A stretch of 64,000 bases of DNA, from contig NC_009523.1 in the NCBI RefSeq assembly GCF_000016665.1, positions 3,224,001 through 3,288,000 of the forward strand, written 5' to 3'. The translations under genes and the position numbers were made by a program. The first letter of the stretch is position 1; every line of letters begins with the position of its first letter. The notes under the pieces were generated by a model. The model made no database searches. It was not told the origin of the DNA and worked only from the letters and a program-made list of their open reading frames with translations. Source of the stretch: Roseiflexus sp. RS-1. Its GTDB lineage: Bacteria; Chloroflexota; Chloroflexia; Chloroflexales; Roseiflexaceae. This document shows, piece after piece, positions 6,031-58,970 of the stretch.

Positions 6031-6272
6031 CAACGTTCAACACCCAACGCTTACCATCCCAACGTTCCCACCTTCAACCTTCAACCTTCAACGTTCAACA
6101 CCCAACGCTCACCATCCCAACGTTCCCACCTTCAACCTTCAACCTTCAACGTTCAACACCCAACGCTCACCATCCCAACGTTCCCACCTTCAACCTTCAA
6201 CCTTCAACGTTCAACACCCAACGCTCACCACCCCAACGTTCCCACCTTCAACCTTCAACCTTCAACGCCCAA
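6031..6272. repeat. 58-bp tandem repeat array built from degenerate heptamers
   Basis: Four units starting at 6031, 6089, 6147 and 6205, plus a partial fifth at 6263, repeat with an exact 58-base period. Each unit is itself a run of 7-mers of the type CAACCTT, CAACGTT, CAACACC, with two 8-mers. The plus strand is almost free of G. The units differ by only one or two bases, so the expansion is recent. Although open in several frames, the low-complexity translation has no sign of being a protein. It fills most of the 535-base gap between the divergent pseudokinase and RseP genes and stops five bases before the RseP -35 box. Confidence 0.95.
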
Positions 6273-7514: not shown

Positions 7515-7763
7515 ATGGCTCACCGACGTTTACCGACGATCCGCGCCAGCGAAGTGGGCGAATATGTGTACTGCGCCCGATCCTGGTGGCTGCGCCGTGT
7601 CGCCGGACTGGAACCAGAGGGGCGTGAACGGCGTGAGCGCGGTACGACTCTGCACCGCCGCCACGCACGCTCGGTGGCGCTGAGTCGTCTGTTGCTGGCT
7701 GTGGCAGTGTTGCTCGGCGTTGCTGCGTTGATTGTGCTGGTCGGCGGCGGATATGCGGGCTGA
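7515..7763 (+). CDS. Cas4-like N-terminal half with membrane anchor
   Basis: An 82-residue protein. IRASEVGEYVYCARSWWLRR followed by GTTLHRRH matches the N-terminal part of Cas4/Dna2-type (DUF83) nucleases, where the single Cys (Cys20) is the first ligand of the iron-sulfur cluster. The chain then runs into one transmembrane helix (about 58-79) and ends, whereas ordinary Cas4 continues into the nuclease core. The rest is encoded by the next gene three bases downstream. It starts 24 bases after rseP, so the three may share a transcript. No CRISPR array is visible in the window. Confidence 0.75.
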   Translation: MAHRRLPTIRASEVGEYVYCARSWWLRRVAGLEPEGRERRERGTTLHRRHARSVALSRLLLAVAVLLGVAALIVLVGGGYAG

Positions 7764-7766
7764 GCC

Positions 7767-8279
7767 ATGGCGATCACCGTCGGATTGGCGTTGATCATGC
7801 TGGCGCTGATCGCTCTGATCGGTGCGCTGCGCCTCCGTGCTGCAACCGGACTTCCGTGGGCGCCGGTGGTCTATCACGATACCGACGCCTGGACGCCGGA
7901 ACGACCACTGGTTGCGCGCCGGATCGGACTGGTCGGCAAGCCCGATTATCTGATCCAGATGCGCGGATGTCTCATACCCGTAGAAGTCAAACCGGGGCGA
8001 AACGCTGCGCATCCGTATGAATCCGATCTGATGCAACTGGCAGCGTACTGCGTACTGATCGAGGAAACGACCGGCGTCGCCCCGCCCTATGGTCTGCTGC
8101 GGTACGCGGAGCGCACCTTCCGTCTCTCGTATACCGCGCGGGTGCGCGAAGAAGTGCTGACACTGCTCGACGAAATGCGCAACGCCCTTGACAACGACTG
8201 TGATCGGAGTCACGATGATCCTGCACGCTGTCGGGGATGCGGCTTCTTATCGCAGTGCGATCAGGCAATCATCGGTTGA
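7767..8279 (+). CDS. Cas4-like PD-(D/E)XK nuclease half with membrane anchor
   Basis: A 170-residue protein. After an N-terminal membrane helix (about 4-22) come the nuclease motifs: GKPDYL (Asp60), PVEVKPG (Glu73 and Lys75) and LMQLAAYCVL (Gln90, Tyr94), in the order and spacing of Cas4/RecB-type nucleases. The C-terminus has CRGCGFLSQC (Cys155, Cys158, Cys164), the last three ligands of the 4Fe-4S cluster. The first ligand is on the preceding ORF, so a complete cluster would need both proteins. A role in DNA repair at the membrane is conceivable; function is unknown. Confidence 0.8.
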   Translation: MAITVGLALIMLALIALIGALRLRAATGLPWAPVVYHDTDAWTPERPLVARRIGLVGKPDYLIQMRGCLIPVEVKPGRNAAHPYESDLMQLAAYCVLIEETTGVAPPYGLLRYAERTFRLSYTARVREEVLTLLDEMRNALDNDCDRSHDDPARCRGCGFLSQCDQAIIG

Positions 8280-8350: not shown

Positions 8351-8605
8351 ATGACCATTATTACGCGCGAAATGCTGGCTGAACAGATCGAAGCTCGATT
8401 GAGCGGCGCTATCACCGACGAAACGCTGGCGGCATGGGCATTCGACCGATTCTACGCCGTCGAACTCGGTCTGGCACAGATCGAAACCGGCGCCGAAGAG
8501 CGTATTGCCGACATACTCGACACCCTGATGTTTGCCGATCACGCCGCGTTTCGCCTGGAAGAAGGAGCATTGCGCAGTCTGGTTGCGCAGTTGAGAACGC
8601 TATGA
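8351..8605 (+). CDS. Small conserved hypothetical protein
   Basis: An 84-residue acidic, mainly helical protein (MTIITREMLAEQIEARLSGA start). I do not recognise a family with confidence. It overlaps the next gene by four bases (ATGA at 8602-8605), so the pair is almost certainly co-translated. The layout of a short helical protein followed by a small zinc-ribbon partner suggests a two-protein complex, but nothing in the sequence gives a function. No clear ribosome-binding site precedes the ATG. Confidence 0.6.
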   Translation: MTIITREMLAEQIEARLSGAITDETLAAWAFDRFYAVELGLAQIETGAEERIADILDTLMFADHAAFRLEEGALRSLVAQLRTL

Positions 8606-8937
8606 AAATTCGGACCCATCCACGAATAGGCGCCATTCGCGTCGGCGATGAGGTATATTCGTACCGCTACCACCTTTTTGCCCGTGTTGAAGCGGTCTTT
8701 CCCGCAGCGGTATGCGTCAAGATTGCCGCGATCGATGGCATGCACCCGCTGGAACTGACCCTCATCCCGCAACTCTGGCGCGCTGACGATATTGAAAATC
8801 TGAGCATCTGTCGGTACTGCGGCGGGCGGGAGAATCTCCTCCTGGAGCGCGAGACCGGCATTCCCTTCCGGGTGTGTGAACGCTGCCGCATCGTCCCGCC
8901 ACAGGAACACAGTTATGTGCAGTGGCGCTGGTGGTAG
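8602..8937 (+). CDS. Small zinc-ribbon hypothetical protein
   Basis: A 111-residue protein starting at the ATG that overlaps the upstream stop. The N-terminal half looks like a small beta-barrel (VGDEVYSYRYHLFARVEAVF). CRYCGG and CERC, about 25 residues apart, form a four-cysteine zinc ribbon near the C-terminus. A longer in-frame extension from 8434 overlaps the preceding gene and is rejected. The function is unknown. It converges with the GerMN gene 34 bases away. Confidence 0.6.
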   Translation: MKIRTHPRIGAIRVGDEVYSYRYHLFARVEAVFPAAVCVKIAAIDGMHPLELTLIPQLWRADDIENLSICRYCGGRENLLLERETGIPFRVCERCRIVPPQEHSYVQWRWW

Positions 8938-38740: not shown

Positions 38741-39008
38741 CGGTGCAACGATGACAGATTGATCGCAATAGTGAGTCTTTTGCAACAAGGTTCTTTCAAC
38801 GCAGCGGCGCAGTAGATACAGCAAGCAAGGGAAGGAAACCTCTGCATGCTTTGCGTCTCGGCGGTGCAACACTGCGGTGCAACGATGACAGATTGATCGC
38901 AATAGTGAGTCTTTTGCAACAAGGTTCTTTCAACGCAGCGGCGCAGTGGACACAGCAAGCAATGGAAGGAAACCTCTGCGTGCTTTGCGTCTCGGCGGTG
39001 CACTTTTG
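38741..39008. repeat. Two tandem copies of a 134-bp non-coding repeat
   Basis: Unit 1 starts at 38741 and unit 2 at 38875; they differ at only a few bases. Read on the minus strand they give KVHRRDAKHAEVSFHCLL-like and SLAC-type strings, a familiar false-protein signature of dispersed intergenic repeats in Chloroflexota and Cyanobacteria. They fill most of the 361-base gap between the glycoside hydrolase start and the PASTA kinase stop. Confidence 0.9.
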
Positions 39009-58439: not shown

Positions 58440-58970
58440 GCCGTTGGGCTGAATGAATAGCCGATAAGCGATAGCTGATAGCCGAGAGGAGCGCTGGACG
58501 TCGGGCTCATGGAGATTGAATCCGCTATACCGTGCGAGCCGTGGGGCTGATGGCGATTGAGAATTTATTCCGCTATCCCGCGCTAGCCGTGGGGCTGAAG
58601 CCCTCGGCTAGCCAAGGCGAAGCCCGCCTGCGCGGGCTGTAGCGGATTATTTACTCAAAGACCATAAGCCCTCGGCTATGGAATGCAAAGCCCGCCTGCG
58701 CGGGCTGGAGCGGATTATTTCTGCGAAGACCATCAGCCCCTGGCTATCCAGGGCAAAGCCCGCCTGCGCGGAACGCGAACTCCAACGGTGACCCTCTCGA
58801 CCATTGGCTATCGGTTATCGGCTATCGGCTCTGTGGGGCAAAGCCCGCCTGCGCGGAACGCGAACTCCAACAGTGACCCTATTGGCTATCGGCTATCGGT
58901 TATCGGCTCTCGCCTATCGGCTATTGCCTATCGCCTATCGCCTATCGGCAGCGGCGAGTCAAAAAACACG
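58440..58970. repeat. Repeat-rich intergenic block
   Basis: No gene. The core AAGCCCGCCTGCGCGG occurs four times (58620, 58688, 58756, 58841); the first two continue to a perfect GCCCGC-CTGC-GCGGGC hairpin, flanked by CCCTCGGCTA and AGCGGATTATTT. Two of the copies share GAACGCGAACTCCAAC. Heptamer runs of CGGCTAT type lie at 58803-58832 and 58882-58948. Confidence 0.9.
58882..58948. repeat. Degenerate heptanucleotide array (CGGCTAT type)
   Basis: About nine consecutive 7-mers, such as CGGCTAT, CGGTTAT, CGGCTCT and CGCCTAT. A shorter run of the same type is at 58803-58832. Confidence 0.85.

Follow-up and report, generated by a model that had tools for sequence, protein, structure and literature searches.

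Two adjacent open reading frames in the genome of Roseiflexus sp. RS-1 divide between them the motifs of a Cas4-like nuclease, which raises the question of whether they are fragments of one broken gene, unrelated neighbors, or separate subunits of a single enzyme. Cas4-type nucleases are described as single soluble chains, and the natural split in the pair runs through the active site as well as the iron-sulfur (Fe-S) site. The initial annotation of the DNA read the pair as a Cas4-like nuclease divided between two membrane-anchored proteins. This reading is supported by our analysis: two conserved and co-inherited membrane proteins jointly hold every Cas4 motif, including a histidine, His47, that the annotation had overlooked.

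Gene layout and Cas4 motifs

The window, which is the whole 64,000-nucleotide stretch of DNA that was analyzed, belongs to a Chloroflexota genome of 5.80 Mb in one contig. ORF1 (positions 7515..7763 of the window, plus strand) encodes 82 amino acids, comprising an N-terminal piece of a Cas4-like nuclease followed by a C-terminal membrane helix (tail-anchored, N-in). ORF2 (7767..8279, plus strand) encodes 170 amino acids, with an N-terminal membrane helix (N-out, C-in) and the remainder of the nuclease. The junction of the two genes is TGA-GCC-ATG, and both are in the same frame.

The sequence GEYVYC of ORF1 ends in Cys20 (codon 7572..7574, plus strand), the N-terminal Cys ligand of the Cas4 Fe-S site, and His47 (codon 7653..7655, plus strand) belongs to RecB motif I (G-x3-H), where it is a metal ligand. 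When solved Cas4 proteins are aligned to a profile of the joined sequences, their N-terminal Cys falls on Cys20 and their motif-I His on His47. ORF2 carries GKPD60Y and E73-V-K75, which are RecB motifs II and III (7944..7991, plus strand), Q90-LAA-Y94, which is the QhXXY motif (8034..8048, plus strand), and Cys155-x2-Cys158-x5-Cys164 (8229..8258, plus strand), which provides the C-terminal trio of cluster ligands. The catalytic metal site is therefore divided as well as the Fe-S site, since Cys20 and His47 are on ORF1 and the remaining ligands are on ORF2. Only S12, C20, G43, and H47 are invariant among 34 ORF1 homologues, and Cys20 is retained in the plasmid copies as well. In 43 ORF2 homologues, G57, C155, C158, and C164 are invariant, whereas Q90 and Y94 are nearly so, as are D60, E73, and K75, each at 90% or more.

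Single Cas4 profiles are tiled end to end by the two chains. In NCBIfam TIGR00372 (cas4, 180 positions), ORF1 covers positions 2-45 (6e-5) and ORF2 positions 62-178 (2.8e-17), and in the PADLOC Cas4 profile PDLC01447 (161 positions) the coverage is 5-46 and 49-159, respectively. Scored apart, the chains reach 22.9 bits (ORF1) and 63.1 bits (ORF2), so neither alone is named Cas4 under the TIGR00372 rule, which has an equivalog cut-off of 65 bits. The PADLOC profiles matched are mainly those of Cas4 and the DruK nuclease, and the PADLOC search of the pair gave no defense-system assignment. ORF2 matches the Pfam families Cas_Cas4 (E 2.8e-8) and PDDEXK_1 (7.8e-8) far above chance. The Pfam scores of ORF1 alone are weak (0.004), which leaves room for the view that ORF1 is a separate small membrane protein with an incidental likeness to the Cas4 N-terminus and that ORF2 acts alone. 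We regard this as highly improbable: the Cys and His missing from ORF2 are exactly among the invariant residues of ORF1, several Cas4 profiles match ORF1 at their N-terminus, and the two genes are inherited together even where they are unlinked.

The pair has the features by which a Cas4-like RecB-type nuclease is recognized (pfam01930/pfam12705), namely the motif-I His, the Asp, Glu-x-Lys, QhXXY, and, in the read-through model, a Cas4 fold. The arrangement of one N-terminal and three C-terminal Cys (C-x2-C-x5-C) is also fulfilled, though across two chains. A single polypeptide, which is usual in Cas4-like nucleases but not strictly defining, is not what the two ORFs provide. Annotated "Dna2/Cas4 domain" proteins of about 165 amino acids may be half enzymes that are inactive when expressed alone.

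Membrane helices and topology

The coordinates, membrane helices, and motifs described for the two ORFs in the initial annotation, with Cys20 in EYVYC on ORF1 and the Asp, Glu-x-Lys, and Gln-Tyr motifs and three Cys on ORF2, were all borne out. Helix 1 comprises residues 59-77 of ORF1 (7689..7745, plus strand), with a mean Kyte-Doolittle hydropathy of 3.08 and a charge bias indicating N-in orientation; its hydropathy exceeds 1.6 in all 63 ORF1 homologues measured. Helix 2 comprises residues 3-21 of ORF2 (7773..7829, plus strand), with a mean hydropathy of 2.77. The positive charge of ORF1 lies ahead of its C-terminal helix, behind which there are only about 2.6 residues. ORF2 has about 2.3 residues ahead of its N-terminal helix and its positive charge behind it, and the charge is higher behind the helix than ahead of it in 67 of 69 ORF2 homologues. 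The charge bias, together with the positive-inside rule, places both soluble parts in the cytoplasm. Judged by their sequences, the two helices look as if a membrane hairpin had been inserted into Cas4 and cut at its outer turn.

The ORF1 proteins of a Ktedonobacteria-like group (L063-L067, L075, L076) are longer, with 125-138 amino acids, and carry an insert that separates the membrane helix from the Cys region. The name of the group is an inferred label.

Conservation of the split in Chloroflexota

The same split, for which the initial annotation had suggested looking in other genomes, is present across the phylum. The survey included 400 Chloroflexota genomes that were 80% complete or better and left out the Ktedonobacteria-like group, in which ORF1 has diverged. 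The detection cut-offs (E < 1e-15 for ORF1 and E < 1e-29 for ORF2) were chosen after the lists had been seen. ORF1 was detected in 95 and ORF2 in 96 of the 400 genomes, and 94 of the 97 genomes with either part have both. The two genes are adjacent in 75 of these 94 genomes, separated by 0.7-1.4 kb in eight, and unlinked in 11, where they are on separate contigs or 0.18, 0.89, or 2.8 Mb apart on one contig. All three relative frames (0, 1, and 2) occur among the 72 loci in which ORF1 is next to ORF2 or close to it, and many of the junctions are overlaps of four nucleotides (ATGA) or one nucleotide (TGATG, TAATG). The dN/dS ratios within Roseiflexaceae are 0.12-0.29 for ORF1 and 0.08-0.13 for ORF2; the values are rough because dS is near saturation, and with that reservation they suggest that both ORFs are under purifying selection.

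Two observations had been named in advance that would refute the division, one continuous reading frame and homologues without ORF1, and neither objection holds. In none of about 159 loci are the two domains joined in one ORF. ORF2 alone was scored in only two genomes, one of which (G068) has a diverged ORF1 upstream, whereas in the other (G239) ORF2 itself is damaged and its Cys pattern lost. The one genome with ORF1 alone (G112) is represented by an assembly that is 82% complete.

ORF1 and ORF2 of the window have a common frame and only a TGA and one codon between them, as would be expected if they were fragments of a single Cas4 gene resulting from a sequencing error, a young frameshift, or decay. 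This explanation can for practical purposes be discarded. The identical split is present phylum-wide in many independent assemblies and in all three relative frames, unlinked copies exist, each ORF has a separate membrane helix, and selection appears to maintain both. Sequencing error, frameshift, and read-through were rejected on the grounds of the unlinked and out-of-frame pairs.

Structure model of the joined chains

The structure was predicted by AlphaFold2 from 68 sequences, with the TGA read as Trp, which gave one artificial chain of 254 residues as a stand-in for the complex. The model has a pLDDT of 95.2 and a pTM of 0.90; few rows of the alignment cover the membrane part. Its helices include residues 37-77, in which the motif-I helix is continuous with membrane helix 1, and residues 83-111. 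Residues 3-253 superimpose on the Cas4 domain of 7mi4 with a Z score of 19.0 and an rmsd of 2.6 over 177 aligned residues, and the Z scores relative to the type I-C Cas4 (8d3l) and SSO0001 are 18.3 and 13.8, respectively. Foldseek was also used for structure comparison of the model. Because the model was built on one artificial chain, the joining of the chains was imposed.

The confident in silico folding of the read-through product and the in-frame TGA-GCC-ATG of Roseiflexus could be taken to mean that programmed read-through or frameshifting yields a single fused protein. This is very hard to reconcile with the occurrence of frames 0, +1, and +2, the variation of the stop between relatives, and the 11 genomes in which the genes are on different contigs or 0.18-2.8 Mb apart, and we consider such a product most unlikely.

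Proposed enzyme

It is likely that ORF1 and ORF2 are obligate subunits of a membrane-tethered Cas4-like (RecB-type PD-(D/E)XK) DNA nuclease, the cluster and metal site of which are completed between the chains. The N-terminal helix region, and with it the motif-I His and the first Cys of the cluster, would come from ORF1 and lead directly into membrane helix 1. ORF2 would start outside, pass through membrane helix 2, and continue as the cytoplasmic beta core with the Asp, Glu-x-Lys, Gln/Tyr, and the last three Cys. The two helices may pair like a hairpin and so place the nuclease at the inner face of the membrane, and only the meeting of the chains would complete the catalytic metal site and the presumed Fe-S site with its four Cys. 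The enzyme may trim or cut single-stranded DNA ends near the membrane, in repair or recombination or on incoming DNA, although this inference is weaker.

The gene structure, conservation, co-inheritance, tiling of Cas4 profiles, charge bias, and confident model are observations, whereas the physical complex, the Fe-S cluster, metal binding, and nuclease activity are inferred, with no experiment and no Cys-Cys distances to draw upon. A cluster formed between two chains, as put forward in the initial annotation, is backed by sequence, conservation, and the model, and in the absence of chemistry remains an inference.

The stable split, kept phylum-wide even when the genes are unlinked, would offer a clean test of whether the iron staple is there for assembly, for switching, or for catalysis. 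Tethering of the enzyme suggests membrane-sited DNA work that is undescribed in Chloroflexota. It is a speculative and on balance improbable extension that the pair represents an ancient Fe-S nuclease family, spread over at least three phyla and plasmids, with its cluster and catalytic site between two membrane proteins, in which DNA cutting is switched on by assembly at the membrane, perhaps depending on redox or membrane state.

Comparison with known Cas4-type nucleases

Cas4 (pfam01930, COG1468; 8d3l, 7mi4) resembles the pair in its fold over the whole length (Z 18-19), in motifs I, II, and III and QhXXY, and in the order and spacing of the four Cys. However, Cas4 of 8d3l and 7mi4 is one soluble chain bound to Cas1-Cas2, whereas the pair consists of two membrane chains with no cas genes among the examined neighbors. 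The cluster of SSO0001 (4ic1) is held by Cys32/188/191/197, and its metal ligands include His62, Asp99, and Glu113 (PMC4176176); these residues correspond to those divided over ORF1 and ORF2. The C-terminal Cys spacing of the pair equals that of Cys188/191/197 of SSO0001 and of Cys200/203/209 of Pcal_0546 (4r5q), in which His94 is the proposed equivalent of the motif-I ligand (PMC4176176). Unlike the pair, SSO0001 and Pcal_0546 are single soluble chains. The H80A mutant of SSO1391 is inactive, and two soluble Cas4 proteins need their Cys residues for the cluster but can cut without them (PMC4176176). The cluster may therefore have a role in assembly and not in catalysis.

The iron-staple nucleases AddB, AdnA, Dna2, and EXO5 likewise have a RecB-type domain flanked by one Cys on its N-terminal and three on its C-terminal side, and they match the model in fold (Z 9-14), but they are one chain each, helicase-fused or soluble. 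ACE1 of the Cas4 family (9iac, 9iab; Z 11-12) shares with the pair a Cas4-like fold untied to Cas1-Cas2, but it is a single chain and, according to the title of the structure, Argonaute-associated. A survey of Cas4 proteins (Hudaiberdiev 2017, PMC5704561) described a monophyletic solo-Cas4 group in many Chloroflexi, which may be the ORF2 of the pair. All Cas4 members were said there to have four Cys, and neither a split nor membrane helices were reported. Our literature search, the scope of which excluded subscription papers and preprints, found no paper that describes a Cas4 in split or membrane-bound form.

Some ORF2 proteins deviate in their motifs. The ORF2 of locus L074, which is in genome G068, keeps the three Cys and has lost the Asp and Glu-x-Lys, and those of L068, L072, and L073 keep the three Cys and have lost the Tyr of QhXXY. 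Because of these changes, not all members need cut DNA. It is possible that the four are pseudo-enzymes with a binding or structural role, and their motifs hint that the cluster fold may be retained for some other reason.

Gene neighborhood and relation to CRISPR

The gene order around the window pair is (pyrH-frr-uppS-cdsA-)rseP-ORF1-ORF2-two small ORFs. The rseP-type metalloprotease gene (TIGR00054; 6312-7490), immediately before ORF1, is present in 37 of 80 loci. In the Anaerolineae-type order, a translin-like gene is followed by ORF1, sometimes a YkuD or HEAT gene, ORF2, nadK, and recN. The counts over the 80 loci are 13 for the translin-like gene, 13 for nadK, 12 for recN, five for DUF3467, and three for ssb, all of them, like the rseP count, lower bounds because of the greedy gene caller. 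No shared partner gene was found around the unlinked ORF1 or ORF2.

The claim that no cas genes are nearby holds for the examined neighbors, which were only part of the ORFs of the window. Adjacency to cas1/cas2 or a CRISPR array, as in a CRISPR-associated Cas4, is not fulfilled, as the neighbors are rseP and small ORFs. The host genome also encodes a one-chain Cas4, about 0.9 Mb from the pair and next to a cas1-like ORF and a repeat array (both labeled from sequence only), indicating that the split pair is not the CRISPR Cas4. The pair does meet the definition of solo-Cas4, a gene of the Cas4 family outside CRISPR loci, and in this it is like the solo-Cas4 nucleases of PMC5704561.

The translin-like gene abuts ORF1 upstream in L172, L156, L161, L169, and other Anaerolineae-type loci, some of which have ssb and DUF3467 before it. 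Bacterial translin homologues have, to our knowledge, been little studied. The two small ORFs downstream of ORF2 in the window (8351-8605 and 8602-8937, plus strand) encode 84 and about 111 amino acids and overlap by four nucleotides, and the second contains zinc-ribbon-like CRYC...CERC pairs. A Pfam search with the window copies of these two ORFs gave no match. They recur behind ORF2 in Chloroflexales, in 15 and 18 of the 80 loci, respectively.

Distribution, plasmid copies, and phylogeny

A scan with the ORF2 pattern, using one genome per species, returned 80 loci, nearly all titled Chloroflexota. The exceptions are two titled just "bacterium" and one Gracilibacteria bin, which may be a case of mis-binning. 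Outside Chloroflexota, three plasmids of B. subtilis (Bacillota) carry the pair, with an ORF1 of 81 and an ORF2 of 162 amino acids closely behind a YoaA/DinG-family helicase, and make it available in a genetically tractable species. A Paludisphaera plasmid (Planctomycetota) has an ORF1/ORF2 pair with a four-nucleotide overlap. The conjugative plasmid of the planctomycete Singulisphaera has a pair near mobF, the ORF1 of which was assigned by position and size only. A set of 11 ORF2 sequences drawn from the three phyla shows no change at Asp60, Glu73, Lys75, Gln90, or any of the three Cys, and Cys20 and His47 are equally constant in the ORF1 set.

A tree built from the nuclease core places the split forms away from one-chain Cas4 proteins belonging to the same phylum (one change, support 84/78). 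They cluster by genome family, with the plasmid copies nested inside. The tree rests on few columns and has long branches, and the support is modest. The topology would fit one old fission followed by mostly vertical descent. No fused ancestral form, with one chain containing a membrane hairpin, turned up in the approximately 159 loci or the examined plasmid matches; other phyla were not broadly covered.

On the B. subtilis plasmid NZ_OX419581.1 (L198/L199, 11957-17585), the split Cas4 pair is accompanied by the YoaA/DinG-family helicase, a 77-residue ORF, Hfq, an SNase-type thermonuclease, and a DnaG-like primase. The cluster looks like a DNA-processing or transfer module.

Possible cellular roles

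Two roles can be considered for the enzyme. The first, the processing of DNA ends at the membrane in chromosomal repair or recombination, is a reasonable candidate, although short of probable. It is favored by the Anaerolineae-type neighbors, with nadK-recN downstream, the translin-like gene upstream, and sometimes ssb, by the helicase right upstream of the pair on the B. subtilis plasmid, and by the near-constant, mostly vertical presence of the pair in Chloroflexales. However, the Chloroflexales neighbors rseP, cdsA, uppS, and frr include no repair gene, and the adjacency of nadK and recN is widespread in bacteria, which weakens its value as evidence.

The second role, that of a barrier or processing step acting on DNA that crosses the membrane in transformation, conjugation, or phage infection, is possible but somewhat doubtful. 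The tethering of the nuclease to the cytoplasmic face of the membrane, the copy near mobF on the conjugative planctomycete plasmid, and the copy on a B. subtilis plasmid with transfer genes agree with it, and a cyanobacterial Cas4-like nuclease lowers the transfer or maintenance of plasmid RSF1010 (PMC10653904). Against it, no relative was found in the phage records and viral contigs that were searched, and the steady vertical inheritance is unlike that of most defense genes. ComEC is present in 347 of the 400 Chloroflexota genomes, and its co-occurrence with the pair is uninformative about a role in DNA uptake because it is near-universal in the phylum.

Repeats were also noted in the window. 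A 58-bp tandem array (6031-6267; 4.1 copies, 98% match) lies between a kinase-like gene and rseP, and further repeats are located at 38741-39002 (134 bp, two copies) and 58598-58949.
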